Of a stretch of 36,613 nt of DNA, positions 17,216 through 25,856 are shown piece after piece. Position 1 is the first letter of the stretch, and each line of letters starts with the position of its first letter. The position numbers and the translations under genes are program-made. The stretch comes from Balneolales bacterium (lineage in GTDB: Bacteria; Bacteroidota; Rhodothermia; Balneolales; Cyclonatronaceae): NCBI GenBank assembly GCA_022565805.1, contig JAIULZ010000028.1:1-36613 (forward strand), given 5' to 3'. The notes under the pieces are model-generated. The model did not search any database and was not told the origin of the DNA. It saw only the letters and a program-made list of their open reading frames with translations.

Positions 17216-17965
17216 ATGCAGGACAATCTCCAAAAACAGAGATTTGAATTTAAATATCATGTTGATGAATACACCGCCCTGCAAATTAGGGAGTTCGTAT
17301 CATCTTATCTCGAATTGGATGCTTTTGGAGCTACACAGCCCAATTTTTCCTATCCGGTACACAGTTTATATCTCGATTCCAGAGATTATAAAACCTATAT
17401 GGATACAATTAATGGAGAGAGAAACCGCTTTAAATTAAGGATTCGTTATTATGAAGCTGGGGATAATGAGCCAGTCTATTTCGAAATGAAGCGTCGAATG
17501 AATGCCATAATCTTAAAAAAAAGAGCAAAAATCCAGCGCGCATCCGTACCGGCAATTCTTTCCGGCCATTTTGCACGCAAAGAAGACTTTGCTAATTATT
17601 CCGAAGACGAGGCAGAGTCGATGAACGACATCAGCATGTACATTAACCAACTACATGCGCAGCCGCGGGTTCACGTTTCTTATATAAGGGAAGCATGGAT
17701 GGCTAATGGTACTAATAAAATACGGGTAACGCTCGATCGAAATGTACGCAGCGATGCGGTAGACGAACTCACATTTAAGAAAGAGATGATTCGCCCAGTT
17801 GATGTTTTTGGTGATGATGTTATTCTCGAGCTTAAATTTACCGATCGATTTCCAGACTGGTTCAAAACGATGGTTCAGGTTTTTGGTCTGCGACAAGAAT
17901 CTGCCGCAAAATATGTAGATGGGCTAATTCATCTCAGAGACACGCACCAAATTGGGTTACCATAG
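17216..17965 (+). CDS. VTC-domain polyphosphate polymerase-like protein
   Basis: A 249-residue cytosolic protein made up of one VTC domain, the catalytic fold of the eukaryotic vacuolar transporter chaperone that makes polyphosphate from ATP. The tunnel-lining charged segments are all visible in order: QRFEFKYHVD (10-18), YPVHSLYLDSRDYKTYMD, NRFKLRIRYY, VYFEMKRRM with ILKKRAKI, VHVSYIREAW, RVTLDRNVRS and, near the end, VILELKFTDRFPDWF. Bacterial proteins of this type have only this domain and are called polyphosphate polymerase domain proteins; activity is inferred. It heads an operon: the DUF4956 gene follows after 49 bases and a HlyD-like gene 2 bases after that. No SPX domain is present. 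Confidence 0.9.
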   Translation: MQDNLQKQRFEFKYHVDEYTALQIREFVSSYLELDAFGATQPNFSYPVHSLYLDSRDYKTYMDTINGERNRFKLRIRYYEAGDNEPVYFEMKRRMNAIILKKRAKIQRASVPAILSGHFARKEDFANYSEDEAESMNDISMYINQLHAQPRVHVSYIREAWMANGTNKIRVTLDRNVRSDAVDELTFKKEMIRPVDVFGDDVILELKFTDRFPDWFKTMVQVFGLRQESAAKYVDGLIHLRDTHQIGLP

Positions 17966-18014
17966 AACTTTTTGCTGTTTTTTCAAGTGCTTATAACATT
18001 AGAGAAGTAATTTT

Positions 18015-18701
18015 ATGAACGAATGGATTTTTTTCGGTGATACGGCTCCTCTGCCTACCGATATTCCAACACTTATTTTAGGTTTGCTGCTTGCATTTAT
18101 ATGCGGGCAGCTTATATCCTGGGTGTATATGTTTACGCACTCGGGTTTGTCTTACTCCAAAAACTTTGTTAATTCGCTTATTATCCTGCCAATAACGGTT
18201 GCTACGGTAATGACCGTGTTAGACAATAATCTTGTAACGGCTTTTAGTTTACTTGCCGTATTTGCAATTGTGCGATTTAGAAATATTGTAAGAGACACGC
18301 TCGATGCCATTTATATTCTTAGTCTCATCGTAATTGGCATGGCATGCGGTACTCAAAAGTTTACAACAGCACTTATCGCAACCCTTATAATGGGCAGTAT
18401 TTTACTCTATCTTTGGTTTACTTCTTTTGGAAGCAGACAGCGCTATGATATGATCCTTAATATTACCTACAGGGCCAGCAGGGCGAAAGCGGGCGAGCTG
18501 CTTCAGCTACTAAACAGGCATGCTTTACGATTAACTTTAGTAAGCGAAAGAATGAATTCCAGTTCCGAAATGACCGATGCATCCTACCGGATTTTATTGC
18601 GAGACCCAAACCGATCTGATTTGATGATTAAAGAAATCAATGAGTTCGAAGGTGTTGACAGGGTAAGCGGAATGAAGGCTCAGGACGAATCGGAGGTATA
18701 A
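18015..18701 (+). CDS. DUF4956 integral membrane protein
   Basis: A 228-residue protein of the DUF4956 family, which is repeatedly found beside VTC-domain genes in bacteria. The first ~135 residues form about four membrane segments (near 22-42, 54-74, 76-98 and 104-132 by hydrophobicity), with the conserved FAIVRFRNIVRDTLDAIYI between them. The C-terminal ~90 residues are soluble and look like a small alpha/beta domain (NITYRASRAKAGELLQLL ... ISYR-type strands). Function is unknown; context suggests that it anchors the VTC polymerase at the membrane or forms part of a path for its product. It overlaps in spacing with the next gene: stop TAA at 18699-18701, next ATG at 18704. Confidence 0.88.
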   Translation: MNEWIFFGDTAPLPTDIPTLILGLLLAFICGQLISWVYMFTHSGLSYSKNFVNSLIILPITVATVMTVLDNNLVTAFSLLAVFAIVRFRNIVRDTLDAIYILSLIVIGMACGTQKFTTALIATLIMGSILLYLWFTSFGSRQRYDMILNITYRASRAKAGELLQLLNRHALRLTLVSERMNSSSEMTDASYRILLRDPNRSDLMIKEINEFEGVDRVSGMKAQDESEV

Positions 18702-18703
18702 AA

Positions 18704-19810
18704 ATGGCTTCAGACTTTAATGGAAAAAAATACGAGCCGGTTCCTATTCCCGCATCCACAAAATGGCGCGAATTCAGAATTCGAATTATTCCGATACTCA
18801 TTTTTCTTGCGGCTGTACTAATCATTTTTTTCCTCTGGGAAAGAAGAGTGCAGAGCCCCGACTTTATTGGTTATGTTTATGCTCCGCAATATGTTATAAC
18901 CGCACAGGCCGATGGCATTATTAGCGAAATTTACGTGCAGGATTTTGATAAAGTTGAGCATGGAAGCCCGGTCGCGCAGATTAAGCGTGGATTAGCAGAA
19001 GAGTTAGAGGCCAGACTGGCTTTAATCAACTCGGAAATTAATCACATTTTGACAAGCGGATACCCGGCAGAATCGGCTGTTCGTGCCTATGTAGATTTGT
19101 TAGGGTTAAAAACAGATGCGGCAGAAATGAGGGCCGAAAGAGCAGAGCTTAGGGAGCAAATTCTTTTCCTGGAAGCCAATTTCCGCAGACAAGAGCAGCT
19201 GTTTGCCTCAGGATTTTCTGAGCAGGTCGCTTTTGAGCTTGCAGAAGCAGAAATGAAGGCTGCCAAAGCCCGCATGGAAGAGCTTAATGCAGAAATAATT
19301 GAATTGGAAAAAAGCATAAGCACGGCTATGGAAATGGCCGACTTAAACAGTAGTAGCCGCGCAGATATGATAGAAAGCGCTGTTTCTGTACAGCGGGTTC
19401 TTGTTCAACTTACCGAAAAAGAATTTGGCTCTTATCAACTTAATAGCAGTGGTTCTGGTATTGTTCAGTTTATGAAACGATCTCCCGGTGAATTTGTAAG
19501 CAGAGGAGATACCATTGCTGTAGTGCAATCGCCCAGACCGGAATCAATAATTGGCATGATTCGGCAGCCTCTGTCTATTAGCCCCGAACCGGGAATGATG
19601 GTTGAGATTCGAAGCCGGAAAATTCAAAGAAACCGGTATACAGCACAGATTAGTAACGTTGGGGGGCAGTTTCGACCAATAGATCAAGCTATGCAACGCC
19701 CCGGCTTATCGTTCGAAAGTGGCTTGCCGGTGCGTATCGAGTTAAGTAGAGAAACTGATTTTGATTTTATTCCTGGAGAATTTGTGGATCTAATCCTGAT
19801 GCGTAATTAG
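18704..19810 (+). CDS. HlyD/membrane-fusion-like adaptor protein
   Basis: A 368-residue protein with one N-terminal membrane anchor (about residues 30-48) after a basic cytoplasmic tail, then a biotinyl-lipoyl-like half (YVITAQADGIISEIYVQDFD), a long alpha-helical hairpin rich in Glu, Ala and Arg (about 95-215), the returning lipoyl-like half (SGIVQFMKRSPGEFVSRGD) and a beta-barrel end (PGMMVEIRSRKI). This is the layout of membrane-fusion proteins of the HlyD/EmrA class, which sit in the periplasm and link an inner-membrane pump to outer-membrane exits. No pump or TolC gene is next to it. GGAGGT at 18692-18697 provides a good ribosome site, overlapping the end of the DUF4956 gene, so translation is probably coupled. 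Pairing with VTC and DUF4956 is the unusual point. Confidence 0.85.
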   Translation: MASDFNGKKYEPVPIPASTKWREFRIRIIPILIFLAAVLIIFFLWERRVQSPDFIGYVYAPQYVITAQADGIISEIYVQDFDKVEHGSPVAQIKRGLAEELEARLALINSEINHILTSGYPAESAVRAYVDLLGLKTDAAEMRAERAELREQILFLEANFRRQEQLFASGFSEQVAFELAEAEMKAAKARMEELNAEIIELEKSISTAMEMADLNSSSRADMIESAVSVQRVLVQLTEKEFGSYQLNSSGSGIVQFMKRSPGEFVSRGDTIAVVQSPRPESIIGMIRQPLSISPEPGMMVEIRSRKIQRNRYTAQISNVGGQFRPIDQAMQRPGLSFESGLPVRIELSRETDFDFIPGEFVDLILMRN

Positions 19811-20325: not shown

Positions 20326-21168
20326 GTGAAATCCGGCAAATATTACAATGAAGTAGCTTCTTATTATGACGATGATGCTAAAGATTTTGAACAGCGCTAC
20401 GAGCAAAATCCCATCTTACAAATCATACGAGAATCTTTTAGACGTGTAACTGAAAAGTTTCCGTTTAATACGGCTTTAGAAATTGGTTGTGGCCCCGGAT
20501 TTGATGTAGAGTATTTTGCTGATAGATACCCTTCCAGAAAGTTCTTTGCTATCGATGTTTCACCCGGTATGATCGAACTCACCAGAAAAAGGTGTGAGCG
20601 AGCAAATCTTAATAACGTGCAGCTCGGTGTTGGGTCGGTAGAAGACATCACGAGTGTTTTTCCGGATCAAAAATTTGATCTTATATATGTTTACTTTGGT
20701 GGATTAAATACGGTTTTTAATCTCGAAGAGGCTGTAAAGCACCTCGAGCAAGTTTGCACAGAAGATGCCCGGTTGGTTGTTACATTTGTGAACCGATACT
20801 ATATTACCGAGATACCGCTATGGCTAGCTAACGGCCGATTCGACAAAGCATTCGAACGTATTACGAATAAGTGGAGAGGATATTCTGATCATCGTAAAAT
20901 TCCGAGTCGCCCGTATAGCTATGGAGATATCAAAAAAGCGTTTAATCCGGTATTTCATATTGGCTATAAAAGAGGCTACAGTATTTTTTATCCCGCATGG
21001 TACCGGTCACATCTGCTCAAGAAGCTCGGGAATAAAGCAGGTACTTTTTGGAAACTAGATAAGTTTTTGTCAAAAACACCATTGTGGAATAGCGGTGAGT
21101 ACAGCTTATATGAAATGTGGCGGAAAAAGAAAGATTTGGTTAAAGCCAGGAGAGAATATGACCGTTAA
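20326..21168 (+). CDS. Class I SAM-dependent methyltransferase
   Basis: A 280-residue methyltransferase with a Rossmann-like fold. Motif I is ALEIGCGPGFD (about 50-60), followed by an acidic end of strand 2 (FFAIDVSPGMIELTRKR) and FDLIYVYFGGLNTV for motif IV. The C-terminal 120 residues are basic and aromatic-rich (SIFYPAWYRSHLLKKLG), which fits work close to a membrane or on a lipid-linked substrate. The acceptor cannot be told. The start is a GTG at 20326; no nearby ATG would keep the N-terminal helix YYNEVASYYDDDA typical of this type. It precedes a convergent epimerase gene (27 bases between ends) and shares its neighbourhood with a kinase-like protein and a glycosyltransferase, so a glycan or glycolipid substrate is a reasonable guess. 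Confidence 0.88.
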   Translation: MKSGKYYNEVASYYDDDAKDFEQRYEQNPILQIIRESFRRVTEKFPFNTALEIGCGPGFDVEYFADRYPSRKFFAIDVSPGMIELTRKRCERANLNNVQLGVGSVEDITSVFPDQKFDLIYVYFGGLNTVFNLEEAVKHLEQVCTEDARLVVTFVNRYYITEIPLWLANGRFDKAFERITNKWRGYSDHRKIPSRPYSYGDIKKAFNPVFHIGYKRGYSIFYPAWYRSHLLKKLGNKAGTFWKLDKFLSKTPLWNSGEYSLYEMWRKKKDLVKARREYDR

Positions 21169-21195
21169 GCTCTTATAGGATAGATATAAATTTAT

Positions 21196-22119
21196 TTATC
21201 TCTTTTTCAGTTTGGCTACAGCATCTGAGATTATACTATTGAGGGAGTCATAATTTAGTGAATAGCTTTGTATAAGCTTTTGATTAGATTGTAAGTTTAC
21301 CGAAAACGTGAGCGCCTCGTGCACTGTTTTGCCATATTTGCTTCGAATTTGTGCGGATGTTATCTCCCGAAACGAACAGTCCAATATCTTTGCAGCTTCA
21401 TCAATAAAATCTTGATATTGTACCGGCTCGATTCCGCACAGGTTATAAATCCCGCTTTGCGTATTTCCCGATGCAATTTCCGAAATTTGCCCCGCACAGT
21501 CTTTGGTATGTATAAGGCTCATCCACGGGTTTGTATCCTTTATTCGCATTATTGTACCCGAAGAACGGGCTTCCTTGTAATAAAACTGTTCGAACCATGA
21601 GCCATCCCCGCAAACCCAGGGCGCGCGAGCTACCGACACCCGAGGTTTATGATTTCCCTTAAGATGATTCAAAAATGGATATTCGGCTTTCACGTAATCT
21701 CTCTGGAAAGCTGTTGGGTTAAGCGATGATTCTTCATCAATCGGTAAATCTCCGCAGTCGCCATAAACAAGGGTTCCCGAAACAAACACTATATGCGGCG
21801 GTCGCTCAAGTTTGGTGAGCCATTTGAGCATACGCTCCGAAGCTTTCTTGCCTTGTAAACCCGCATACCACCGGCTGATTTTATGTCTGCCAGGGATACG
21901 AGCAAGGTGAATAATCACGTCAGGCAAATCCGATTCAAGCTTTTTCCAGTCATAATTCCGGATGTCCCCGATTATATGCTCTGCGCCCGTAATGCTTATA
22001 TTACTCCGCGACATTACGCGTATCTTACCAAACCGATCGTCTGCGACTAGCATCTCAACTAAAGTTTTGCCGATAAAACCCGTACCTCCTAAAACAAGAA
22101 CCTGTTTTCTGGATATCAT
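21196..22119 (-). CDS. NAD-dependent epimerase/dehydratase-like protein, atypical active site
   Basis: A 307-residue extended short-chain dehydrogenase (nucleotide-sugar epimerase type). The NAD-binding GGTGFIG is at residues 11-17, followed by GDIRNYDW, VIIHLARIPG and VFVSGTLVYGD (111-121) with the usual Ser/Thr. Where the catalytic YxxxK should stand, after ESSLNPT, the text reads FQRDY (138-142): Phe in place of Tyr and Tyr in place of Lys. The frame is otherwise clean, and the second half (PWVCGDGSWFEQFYYKEA, MSLIHTKDCA, GIYNLCG) is normal. It may therefore bind NAD and a nucleotide sugar without classic catalysis, or use a shifted base. It sits between the methyltransferase gene (convergent) and the kinase-like gene (divergent, only 17 bases between the two start codons). 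Confidence 0.88.
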   Translation of the reverse strand: MISRKQVLVLGGTGFIGKTLVEMLVADDRFGKIRVMSRSNISITGAEHIIGDIRNYDWKKLESDLPDVIIHLARIPGRHKISRWYAGLQGKKASERMLKWLTKLERPPHIVFVSGTLVYGDCGDLPIDEESSLNPTAFQRDYVKAEYPFLNHLKGNHKPRVSVARAPWVCGDGSWFEQFYYKEARSSGTIMRIKDTNPWMSLIHTKDCAGQISEIASGNTQSGIYNLCGIEPVQYQDFIDEAAKILDCSFREITSAQIRSKYGKTVHEALTFSVNLQSNQKLIQSYSLNYDSLNSIISDAVAKLKKR

Positions 22120-22136
22120 TTTGATTTATTGATTGT

Positions 22137-22862
22137 ATGAGTGAAAAAAAAGCAAGAACGACTAATAAACATTCTTTTTTTTATAAATCGTTTGGCAAGA
22201 ATGAAGAAGCAAGAGATCTGGCCTATACTCGCTGCATGCTTTTTCATAAACAAAGCAAGAAAACAAAGTATGCTGGCTGGGAAGTGAGAACCCTGGACTG
22301 TAAAAAAGTAGGAGATGCCGATAATTTTCAGCTGCAGTTTCAGTTTCTGGAAGGCAGTGAGTTAGCACATATAGATGATGAGGATCTGTTTTATAAGATT
22401 GCGGATGCTGTAATTAATTGGTATGCAAACGCTTTGGAAAGCATGATTCATAAAGAAAACGGGTTTGTGCACGGCGATTTACATGTGTCCAATATAATGG
22501 CAGATACGACTGGGAAACGCATCACCCTAATAGATCCTGTAGTAAAAGAAGCCTCGCCGGAAACCATTTGGCAGGATATTTATCTGTTTTTGGTGAGTGC
22601 ACACTTCCTGAAAAGTCAGAAAACATCACAGCTCGATGCGCTAAGTTTTATGATTGACCAGCAGCTGATCTCCAAATTCAACGGGCTGGAAAACATTACT
22701 CTCGCCGGAACACAGGCCGGGGTAATGATTCGGTACTTCTTGCGGGACCGGAAAAATAAAAGCATATTTACCGCACTAAAAGCTTGCTACTACACCTCAA
22801 AATCGTACTGGAAACTGCGTAAAATACTGCTGCTCCGAACCTCAAGTGTAGCTGATAAATAG
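22137..22862 (+). CDS. Protein-kinase-fold protein (lipopolysaccharide-kinase/RIO-like)
   Basis: A 241-residue protein whose middle has the phosphotransferase loop of the protein-kinase-like superfamily: HGDLHVSNI with Asp114 and Asn119, then LIDPV with Asp133 as the metal ligand. FFYKSF offers Lys17 as the ATP-contacting lysine and EEARDLAY the helix-C Glu. Only 16 residues precede that lysine, so the glycine-rich loop strand is missing; an in-frame stop at 22122-22124 rules out a longer start. The fold is shared by KdkA/InaA/WaaP heptose kinases, RIO and aminoglycoside kinases; the glycan neighbours favour a role in surface glycolipid phosphorylation, but this is inferred. It is transcribed away from the epimerase gene and converges on the glycosyltransferase gene (55 bases between ends). 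Confidence 0.72.
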   Translation: MSEKKARTTNKHSFFYKSFGKNEEARDLAYTRCMLFHKQSKKTKYAGWEVRTLDCKKVGDADNFQLQFQFLEGSELAHIDDEDLFYKIADAVINWYANALESMIHKENGFVHGDLHVSNIMADTTGKRITLIDPVVKEASPETIWQDIYLFLVSAHFLKSQKTSQLDALSFMIDQQLISKFNGLENITLAGTQAGVMIRYFLRDRKNKSIFTALKACYYTSKSYWKLRKILLLRTSSVADK

Positions 22863-22917
22863 GTTTAGTGGCTGCGGATGGAGATTTAGGCAATTCATTA
22901 AATTTAATTTATCAGCT

Positions 22918-24924
22918 TCAATTCTCAACTTTGTTTGGCCGTTGTTGCTTCTTTGCATAATCGTGGAAAATCGTAAGTTTGCGCAGTGTTTTGTTAAAAA
23001 GCTGTGATACGCGCGGCCGGTGGTCTTTTGTGTGCAGCTTAATTAGCCCGGCATCCCAAAGCAGACCTTCTTCTCCGCTTTTTAAGCCTTTTTTTGTCCA
23101 TAAGCTATTGAAAATAAATAGCAGGGTGATGTTGAGATATTTTGCAAACAAACCGGTATGCTTTAATTTAACGGAGCTTTGTTCAGGTGCTGATTCCGGT
23201 AAGTTCGGGAAGAATTCTCGTATCCAGGTGTTTTGGTTTCTGAAATGAGGAGTTCCTGTTTTTATGAAAACCTTTCTCAGAAACAGGATTTGAAAGGCGG
23301 TGTAGTAATCCCGCTGCCAAAAAACTTCCTGCCTGCTTTCATCAATCAGGTAGTTTGAGCATAGTGTATTTTTTTTGCCGCTAAGCAGTGCAAGCAGGCG
23401 TATTGAAATAAGACTTAGCCAAACATAGTTTTTTTTAGAAATAACGAGTAAATCCAAATCCGGCCGGGAAAGCGACGAGTTTTGATGCGAGGTGCCCCCC
23501 GAAAAGTAAACCGCCCGAATCCATGGTATAAAACCCAGTATTTTTAGCAATTTTCTGTGTTCCCGCCTGAACCTTGCTTCATTCCATGCGTCCGCATTTC
23601 TTTTGCCTGCTATTGTGCTCAGTATCAGTTTTGTGTTTTTGTTTTCTAATGCGAATTCTTTGCTATAGGTACTAAGCAATAGCATGAGCGAGTTTCTGAG
23701 CTCATTATCAGTTGCGGGGTAGGGGTGGCACAGACGGAGCTTGCTCTTCGAAATAGAGGCCCCAAAAACGGAGGCATAGGAAACACTTGAAGCAATTGCA
23801 AACGTGTTGTTAAGTAGTTTCTTATCATACAGAGCATTGTTCTTGGGCATATAAAAAGATGTTCCACCCTTTAAATAGCTGCATATCTGTGGTAGCATTT
23901 TTCCCGGTGAGTTTTCCTCCCACTTCTTTTTTTGTATGCGCAGACTTTCTCTGTAATGAGGAGATTCGGGCTCCGATAGCTGCTTAAGCCCATCAATTAT
24001 ACTTTGGTTTGAATGTGCACTGGCTGTAATGGCACAGTTACCGGCAATTTCCTTAAGAGCTGGATCTTCTGAAATGAGTACCTTTTTTCCGGCATTCAGG
24101 GCATCCATTACAGGAAGACCAAAACCTTCTTTATGGCTTACAAGAACAAGCCCCGAGCAAAACATGAGTAAGTCCCCAAGCTCTTGCTGGCTCACAAAAC
24201 CTTTGTATTCGCAATTTGGCGTGCGTTGAATTTCTTCTGAAATGCTTTTTTTCCATGTTTCGGATCCATGTAGTTTACCGGCTAAAACCAAGCTTATATT
24301 AGGATTCAAAAAGTTGAAATCCCGGAACGCCTTAAGTAAAGAAAGTATATTTTTTTTAGGCTCGATATTTCCAACATAAAGCAAATACGGCTGACGCGTA
24401 ACAGGAATCGGATTTTCGAACTGCATGGGAGTATCCGGATTGTGTACTATAATACGTCCAGAATCGGCTCCTAAGTAATGGATGATATCATTTTTCGACG
24501 CCTCGCTTACCGTTAAAATAACTCTTGCGTTCTCTACAGAGTGTCGTATTCGTCTGCTGTACCAGGCGACCATTTTACGGCTGTAAAATTGCGGATGCGT
24601 AAGAAAAGATACATCATGTATAGTTACTGCAGAGGGAATGGGCCATGCGAGCGGCATAAAATAATTCGGGAAAATGCTGGCGTCGGCAGCAATTCCTGTC
24701 TGATTACCGGCGAGTGTCCAGTTTAGAAATAAGTGTCTGTTAGGGTGTTGTTTACTCAGGTGAAGATGCTTGGTAAACCGTTCTGTGTCTTGAGATAATA
24801 CAAACTCTGACGACTCCCTTATGGCATCTATCATCGCTAAAGTATACCTGCCAGTACCGCTAAATTGCCCAAAAAGCGTTGTGGGCTCAACGTAAATGGT
24901 TTTCATTCTCTGCATCGCGCTCAT
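22918..24924 (-). CDS. Glycosyltransferase family 4 fused to a nucleotidyltransferase-like domain
   Basis: A 668-residue two-domain protein. Residues ~7-350 are a GT-B glycosyltransferase of family 4: TLFGQFSGTGRYT, TIHDVSFLTHP (101-111), LLYVGNIEPKKNILSLLKAF (181-200), YKGFVSQQELGDLL and the donor site SHKEGFGLPVMDA. In that site the usual EX7E is E266-X7-D274, a conservative change. After a linker (~350-440), residues ~450-560 show the polymerase-beta nucleotidyltransferase pattern FSGG(476-477)-X11-DLDLLVI with Asp489 and Asp491, and a helical tail to 668. The fusion suggests one protein that transfers a sugar and a nucleotide or nucleotide-linked group, or a nucleotide-gated transferase. 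Three starts are possible (24924, 24915, 24906); the last gives MKTIYVEPTTLFG, which looks most natural. It faces the kinase-like gene. Confidence 0.85.
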   Translation of the reverse strand: MSAMQRMKTIYVEPTTLFGQFSGTGRYTLAMIDAIRESSEFVLSQDTERFTKHLHLSKQHPNRHLFLNWTLAGNQTGIAADASIFPNYFMPLAWPIPSAVTIHDVSFLTHPQFYSRKMVAWYSRRIRHSVENARVILTVSEASKNDIIHYLGADSGRIIVHNPDTPMQFENPIPVTRQPYLLYVGNIEPKKNILSLLKAFRDFNFLNPNISLVLAGKLHGSETWKKSISEEIQRTPNCEYKGFVSQQELGDLLMFCSGLVLVSHKEGFGLPVMDALNAGKKVLISEDPALKEIAGNCAITASAHSNQSIIDGLKQLSEPESPHYRESLRIQKKKWEENSPGKMLPQICSYLKGGTSFYMPKNNALYDKKLLNNTFAIASSVSYASVFGASISKSKLRLCHPYPATDNELRNSLMLLLSTYSKEFALENKNTKLILSTIAGKRNADAWNEARFRREHRKLLKILGFIPWIRAVYFSGGTSHQNSSLSRPDLDLLVISKKNYVWLSLISIRLLALLSGKKNTLCSNYLIDESRQEVFWQRDYYTAFQILFLRKVFIKTGTPHFRNQNTWIREFFPNLPESAPEQSSVKLKHTGLFAKYLNITLLFIFNSLWTKKGLKSGEEGLLWDAGLIKLHTKDHRPRVSQLFNKTLRKLTIFHDYAKKQQRPNKVEN

Positions 24925-25253: not shown

Positions 25254-25856
25254 ATGACAAAACAACAATTTAAAGCGCTGATTGCCGATAAATACCTGCC
25301 TGTTGTACTTCTGGAAGGGCGACGTAAGGTGAAGGAGGAAGATGCATCCTCCCTGACTAATTTCGCGGAAAAATTGGTAAACGAGTTTTCTTCGATCATG
25401 TTCCGGACTGGAAATGCCGATGGCTCGGATACTCTTTTTGCGAAAGGGGTGGGCGCGGTCGATGCTTCCCGAATTCAATATGTTGTGCCCTACGAAAATA
25501 TGAAAAAGGCAAATCGTGTAGATGGTGCAAGTGTTTTAAGCTACGATCGTGTAAACGATTCGGAAGGAGAAAATATACAGCAGCTTACGGCCCAACAAGG
25601 AAAAAAAATGGCGCAAATGGTAGATTACGCTCGTCGGGTTCCCAAAGGCCGGATAGCGGCTAAAGCTCAATATCTTTTGCGAGACACCCTAAAAGTAACC
25701 GGCTCTGACTCAGCCGGCTTCGAAAAACCCGTGGTTGCGTTTTTTTATATCGACCCGGCCGATAAATATGCCGGTGGCACTGGACATACCATTAAAGTCT
25801 GTGAACAGCTCGGCGTTCATGTTATAACTCAGGATGTTTGGATGAAATGGTACTAG
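25254..25856 (+). CDS. SLOG-like (DprA/YspA-type Rossmann) protein
   Basis: A 200-residue cytosolic protein that I read as a SLOG-superfamily member, a Rossmann-like fold that binds nucleotides or nucleotide-derived ligands (relatives: DprA, LOG, YspA). Supporting text: LPVVLLEGRRKV (15-26), TGNADGSDTLFAKG (52-65) in the place of the GGARGAD-type loop, and near the end PADKYAGGTGHTIKVCEQLG (about 167-186) with VHVITQDVW. Hydrophobic strand patterns agree. No catalytic PGG-Glu pair as in LOG enzymes is evident, so a sensor or binding role is likelier than cytokinin-type hydrolysis. The stop codon TAG is the first triplet of a hairpin repeat (25854-25877). Family placement is by eye. Confidence 0.7.
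   Translation: MTKQQFKALIADKYLPVVLLEGRRKVKEEDASSLTNFAEKLVNEFSSIMFRTGNADGSDTLFAKGVGAVDASRIQYVVPYENMKKANRVDGASVLSYDRVNDSEGENIQQLTAQQGKKMAQMVDYARRVPKGRIAAKAQYLLRDTLKVTGSDSAGFEKPVVAFFYIDPADKYAGGTGHTIKVCEQLGVHVITQDVWMKWY

Follow-up and report, generated by a model that had tools for sequence, protein, structure and literature searches.

Domain architecture of the fusion protein

The window, that is, the whole stretch of 36,613 nucleotides that we analysed, carries on its minus strand (from 24924 to 22918) a single frame of 668 amino acids without any stop codon, as read from the open reading frames of the window. The first-pass annotation had described a fusion of a family 4 glycosyltransferase (GT4) with a nucleotidyltransferase (NT) domain in one clean frame, and its coordinates, given without a strand, were correct. 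Motif, relatives and structure model together indicated that the C-terminal half (approximately residues 370–660) is composed of a winged helix and a polymerase-beta-type NT domain. The gene and its parts are as follows:

22918..24924, minus strand: whole gene of the GT4-winged helix-nucleotidyltransferase fusion; stop-free frame of 668 aa, with relatives that have both halves in one frame
23869..24924, minus strand: GT4 glycosyltransferase domain, residues 1–352; PF00534 match (E 2.4e-20) and GT4 structure matches
24103..24129, minus strand: GT4 EX7E motif, present as E266...D274; E266 invariant in 12/12 aligned fusions, second position E, D, N or Q
23815..23868, minus strand: inter-domain linker, residues 353–370; low pLDDT, length variable among relatives
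23620..23817, minus strand: predicted winged-helix subdomain, residues 370–435; structure model and matches to winged-helix chains
23245..23595, minus strand: predicted NT core, residues 444–560; PF01909 in relatives, not in the window member, and MNT/ANT structures
23494..23502, minus strand: NT motif S475-G476-G477; SGG in 25/25 GT-linked NTs
23452..23460, minus strand: catalytic-type NT motif D489-L-D491; both Asp identical in 44/44 aligned rows
23014..23043, minus strand: C-terminal signature IKLHTKDHRP, residues 628–637; K629, H631 and D634 in 25/25 GT-linked NTs, variable across the 19 stand-alone ones

In the full-length structure model, the two domains were separated by a stretch (residues 354–370) with pLDDT below 50, which corresponds to the linker of variable length. 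The two-domain organisation expected from the first reading was reproduced and the NT fold was matched, but the mutual arrangement of the domains was not fixed by the model, their predicted relative placement being of low confidence (pTM 0.61).

A GT4 glycosyltransferase in the N-terminal half

A Pfam search identified the Glycos_transf_1 domain (PF00534) at residues 176–334 with an E-value of 2.4e-20 and 73.2 bits, against a curated cut-off of 26.4, which upheld the GT4 identity proposed for the N-terminal part. A structure search with the full-length model likewise matched GT4 structures, for example GlgM (6tvp), MshA (3c48) and BshA (3mbo). GT4 enzymes have a GT-B fold and are retaining. 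The replacement of the second Glu of the EX7E motif by Asp, which the first-pass annotation had pointed out, was correctly read (E266...D274). Among 23 GT-linked GT4s, this second position was E in 15, D in 6, N in 1 and Q in 1, the Q (in L014) having been missed by our pattern script and read by eye in the alignment. To judge from these sequences, an Asp at this position appears to be ordinary within the GT-linked clade.

A predicted nucleotidyltransferase in the C-terminal half

The motif of the window protein (G476-G477, eleven residues, then D489-L-D491-L-L-V-I) is exactly the one originally noticed, and a pattern of the GG...DLDLLVI kind appeared in 38 of 100,000 shuffles of residues 353–668. 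G476, D489 and D491 were identical in all 44 NT rows that we aligned (25 GT-linked and 19 stand-alone). Profile searches, proposed with the original NT assignment, succeeded with the family and not with the window member: residues 360–668 of the window protein alone had no Pfam or NCBIfam match at E≤1 and no match among PDB sequences at E≤10, but at E≤0.5 NTP_transf_2 (PF01909) matched 18 of the 26 aligned members and Polbeta (PF18765) 15 of the 26. The best E-values among these 26 members were 2.4e-6 for PF01909 and 2.1e-5 for PF18765, the window member itself having neither match. Other searches gave weak matches, namely MNT at E 0.23 as the best in a PDB profile search, the NCBIfam profiles MntA, LnuH and ANT(9) (best 0.0027) and PADLOC profiles (best E 2.7e-4); an initial scan of the genome contigs found no relative.

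The NT half, modelled from the 26-row alignment (pLDDT 88.7, pTM 0.86), was predicted to start with a winged helix (three helices, two strands) that leads into an NTase core, while helices and a hairpin make up its C-terminal part. Foldseek placed MNT antitoxins on top (best E 7.7e-3, probability 0.93), followed at lower ranks by HI0073, AAD(9), AadA and KNTase, with nothing at 0.001. In VIA-align, ANT 6un8 was matched with Z 8.1 and an rmsd of 3.5 over 117 residues, with winged-helix rows beside or above it at similar or higher Z; winged-helix chains were matched at Z about 7–8. By its relatives, its motif and its structure model, the C-terminal half is a nucleotidyltransferase-fold domain, with modest fold scores. 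The original NT assignment was thus sustained by an exact motif, by relatives that match NTP_transf_2 and Polbeta, and by MNT and ANT as the first of the NT-type fold matches. Two elements went beyond it: the C-terminal part also holds a predicted winged helix, and stand-alone relatives of it exist in the phylum.

Residues that distinguish GT-linked from stand-alone nucleotidyltransferases

Six residues (G477, Q545, N598, K629, H631 and D634) were fixed in all 25 GT-linked NTs. The 19 stand-alone NTs have S, N or E at position 477, E at 545 in 19/19, and D at 598 in 18/19, with E in the remaining one. No third acidic residue was invariant across the 44 rows; within the GT-linked set, D528 and E529 (24/25 each), a D or E at position 539 and D634 (both 25/25) are candidate third catalytic acids. 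This GT-linked signature speaks for selection acting on the NT half, which would have a substrate or a chemistry other than that of the stand-alone NTs. One catalytic group may have been lost in the GT-linked clade (E545 to Q, D598 to N).

The NT half could be catalytically idle and serve the glycosyltransferase as a nucleotide sensor or as a docking or oligomerising module, as the exchange of the stand-alone E545 and D598 (one E) for Q and N in 25/25 GT-linked NTs and the lack of an invariant third acid would allow. However, the identity of G476, D489 and D491 in 25/25 GT-linked NTs from two orders, together with the acids at 528 and 529 (24/25 each) and at 539 and 634 (25/25), makes an idle domain unlikely.

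The several GT-linked positions that differ from the stand-alone NTs are also compatible with another activity, in which the NT-fold half, like LicD and FKRP, would use a CDP-linked donor to transfer a phospho-alcohol and so decorate the sugar that the GT half has added. FKRP is built of a GT-A-like stem and a catalytic domain with NTase fold, and it transfers ribitol-phosphate with CDP-ribitol as donor (PMC6965139); CpsC, of the LicD family, works in capsule synthesis (PMC11666461). However, the scan of the 26 members reported 23 families, and LicD (PF04991) is not one of them; the profiles matched were NTP_transf_2 and Polbeta and the NT-type folds MNT and ANT, which leaves phospho-alcohol transfer a rather small chance.

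Distribution and age of the fusion

Our search for relatives covered this phylum. An NT match was present in 15 of the 128 Balneolales genomes, and 13 of the 128 had the two halves joined in a single frame of 514–805 aa (that of G020 being cut by a contig end). The other two NT-bearing Balneolales genomes were G028, cut at contig ends, and G044, with a stand-alone NT. Because only 15/128 genomes have an NT match, the fusion is an accessory trait in Balneolales. In a sample of the phylum, 25 of 296 genomes matched the NT half, two of them with fused-size frames; for the 23 non-fused matches we read 20 contexts (all except G131, G075 and G319), including those of G129 and G208, where the two halves are split. 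The order of G129, hereafter the second order, shares only the phylum with the window genome. NT matches occurred in 30 of its 164 genomes: 9 fused (one starting at a contig start), 2 split and 19 with stand-alone-sized frames, 5 of which had their contexts read. The same fusion, sought in relatives as the first-pass annotation had advised, was therefore found in one frame in 13/128 and 9/164 genomes of two orders, 22 genomes in total, including the single-contig genome G005. The second-order fusions lie at L107 (6746–8731) and at L109–L116. A frame of 468 aa in G122 was considered as a further fusion and rejected, its extra part being an upstream frame without GT likeness (judged by eye) and its NT being stand-alone.

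In G129 and G208, the two halves are separate genes that overlap or abut, each in its own frame. At L085 (7600–7680) and L086 (7735–7815), which come from two genomes within one genus, such an overlap or contact of the GT4 gene with the NT gene is seen, and the NT gene starts with TTG. A tree of the 44 NT rows grouped the 25 GT-linked NTs in one clade (100/99), with the stand-alone NTs as sister branch. Inside it, the Balneolales GT-linked NTs formed one clade (99/99) and those of the second order, together with the split pair, another one (96/98), in which the split pair was sister to a fused gene whose genus code it shares (100/99) and so nested among fused genes. A GT4 tree, built without the second-order fusions, placed 12 fusions and the two GT4s of the split pair in one clade with support that is not decisive (93/89), and GT4s of the two orders were each other's reciprocal best hits wherever this was tried (window against 2 genomes, L085 against 4). 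The alignments do not include G004, whose GT half is cut at a contig end, or the GT half of G028, and the trees do not include L038, the second copy of G034.

A single old fusion followed by a later fission fits the NT tree and seems the simpler reading for the split pair, since this pair nests among the fused genes of its order; two separate fusions may be an alternative. The split genes could result from fission or from a frameshift that still allows some fused product. We had considered the neighbouring genes of G129 and G208 as the unfused ancestor, an idea that we dropped, as their order has 9 fused genes and the pair is nested among them. The different frames of these overlapping or touching halves would also be what is expected if the fused frame were a sequencing or assembly error joining two genes. 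The same join in 22 genomes of two orders, one of them the single-contig G005, and the nesting of the split pair within the fused clade make such an error next to impossible, and the fusion is, on the sequences compared, genuine and old. Of the two outcomes that the first-pass annotation had named as refuting, a C-terminal region with no NT match or fold and a faulty join of two genes exposed by relatives, neither came about.

Gene neighbourhood

Three genes adjoining the fusion gene in the window were of interest:

21196..22119, minus strand: SDR-type NAD-dependent epimerase/dehydratase, next downstream gene of this strand; PF01370, E 5.9e-12
22137..22862, plus strand: small APH-like kinase, between the fusion and SDR genes; PF01636, E 9.7e-7
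20326..21168, plus strand: class I SAM methyltransferase; PF13649, E 1.9e-16

In raw counts, limited at some loci by short contigs, an SDR homolog was near the gene in 13 of the 15 Balneolales loci with an NT half. A methyltransferase homolog was also present in 13/15 (raw count), consisting of the window's own, 11 at 56–70% identity and one at 28%, and a kinase homolog in 7/15 (raw count), two of these weak. G005 had no SDR or methyltransferase homolog within the 19.9 kb read. An ABC exporter gene was nearby in the window and in its congeners G001, G004 and G005. Strands alternate across 20326–24924 (methyltransferase plus, SDR minus, kinase plus, fusion minus), with a gap of 17 bases between the SDR and kinase genes, and the same alternation occurs in L032, L034, L042 and L046. 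Elsewhere in the window, genes for VTC-domain, DUF4956 and HlyD-like proteins stand in a row at 17216–19810, probably as a cluster of their own immediately upstream of the cassette, and 25254–25856 encodes a 200-aa protein with nothing better than E 0.2 in Pfam and no NCBIfam match; its GGTGHTIKVCEQLGV stretch recalls what we take to be SLOG-type domains.

The adjacency of kinase, SDR epimerase, GT and NT in the window would also suit a function in donor synthesis, the APH-like kinase phosphorylating a sugar that the NT half would convert into the NDP-sugar used by the GT half. We consider it quite improbable, as the kinase homolog occurs in only 7/15 Balneolales loci, two of them weak, and, to our knowledge, the known NDP-sugar pyrophosphorylases have a fold other than that of the NT half.

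A B12-binding radical SAM partner

Of the 9 fused loci of the second order, 8 had a B12 radical SAM gene directly downstream of the fusion, and the ninth stopped at a contig end. Such a gene was also present at both split loci (G129 and G208); over the 21 other NT loci (19 stand-alone and the 2 split), the sequence read contained a homolog in 21/21, at most 210 bases away in 17, and one further stand-alone locus (L108) had it as well. Cassettes of a winged-helix NT and a B12 radical SAM gene, mostly with a class I methyltransferase, were seen at L048, L087–L104 and L108 in several families of the phylum. As a control, genomes were examined for a radical SAM protein with ≥48% identity to the probe: it was encoded in 8/8 of the NT-bearing genomes tested and in 0/10 genomes without NT match, where the best reached 32%, these ten having been hand-picked from two families. 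Profiles did not tell to which B12 radical SAM family the enzyme belongs, the best ones (HpnJ, BchE, ladderane-type and PhpK-type) all being far below their cut-offs.

Among the 15 NT-bearing Balneolales genomes, only G047 and G044 had the radical SAM enzyme, and G047 was the sole one of the 15 loci with the gene. Since 12 of the 13 fused Balneolales genomes had no match to the partner at E≤1e-20, the pathway is not identical in all these organisms. The methyltransferases of the two cassettes were detectably alike (E 4e-13, 24% identity), a likeness that may be general to class I methyltransferases.

Proposed function

The fusion and its conservation, the motifs of the two domains, the predicted fold and the gene linkage are direct observations, whereas we infer activity of the two halves, a substrate common to them and the glycan nature of this substrate. 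Coupled sugar and nucleotidyl transfer, as the first-pass annotation had supposed, seems a fair reading of the fusion and of its conserved residues. At a probability of roughly one half, we propose that the protein is an old bifunctional enzyme that takes part in making cell-surface glycans or glycolipids, with both halves acting on the same intermediate. The GT4 half would use a nucleotide-sugar as donor and attach the sugar to an acceptor. The NT half would then use an NTP to place NMP on this intermediate, at a hydroxyl or a phosphate, or on a product handed on, the tether holding both steps on one acceptor. The unit might be completed in the second order by the B12 radical SAM enzyme, often with a methyltransferase, and in Balneolales by the epimerase, the methyltransferase and sometimes the small kinase.

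The linkage to the radical SAM gene would allow a more specific scheme by analogy with fosfomycin synthesis, in which, according to PMC8158854, Fom3 acts on the cytidylylated substrate 2-HEP-CMP. The fusion would first attach a sugar and after that an NMP tag; the B12 radical SAM enzyme encoded downstream in the second order would recognise the tagged sugar and methylate or remodel it. In Balneolales the tag would have been retained to serve a different last step, carried out by the epimerase and the methyltransferase. This NMP-handle reading is weakened in Balneolales because the radical SAM partner is absent from 12/13 fused genomes, and we regard it as a long shot.

The fusion has a wider meaning, gene fusion being good evidence that two proteins work together. 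It links sugar transfer to a winged-helix NT family for which the libraries used contain no dedicated profile. The same family is also tied to a B12 radical SAM enzyme by strict co-occurrence in 18 genomes tested (8/8 versus 0/10). A tethered GT-NTase that would nucleotidylate a glycan intermediate is a concrete and testable idea.

Comparison with known systems

We found no description of a GT4-nucleotidyltransferase fusion by title or start of the abstract in the open-licence PMC literature, in agreement with the initial impression that it had not been described. Both halves are from known superfamilies, and a protein with a GT-like and an NTase-fold part is known in FKRP; it is for the GT4-NT combination that no description was found.

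The GT half has fold and motifs in common with the GT4 enzymes GlgM, MshA, BshA and PglA; an NT domain is named in none of the 50 rows among the matches listed for GT4 structures, and the fusion has Asp for the second Glu of EX7E. The closest systems on the other side are the stand-alone winged-helix NTs beside B12 radical SAM genes in the same phylum (PF01909/PF18765), which have the same winged helix and G[GS]...DxD domain, spanning ~300 aa. In contrast to the fusion, they lack a GT4, have E545 and D598 (one E) instead of Q and N, and form the sister branch (100/99). The NTase fold is common to MNT antitoxins (Foldseek probability 0.90–0.96 in the first four rows) and, for the NT half, to ANT (6un8, Z 8.1), AadA and AAD(9), all with weak E-values; unlike MNT and ANT, the fusion protein has an extra winged helix, a C-terminal part and the GT4. 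A parallel in layout is FKRP, a glycan-making protein in which, according to PMC6965139, a glycosyltransferase-like domain is likewise followed by an NTase-fold domain. Whereas its GT-A-like stem is described there as being without a catalytic motif, the protein studied here, with no LicD-type profile among the families reported for the 26 members, combines its predicted NT with a GT4 whose motifs are conserved.
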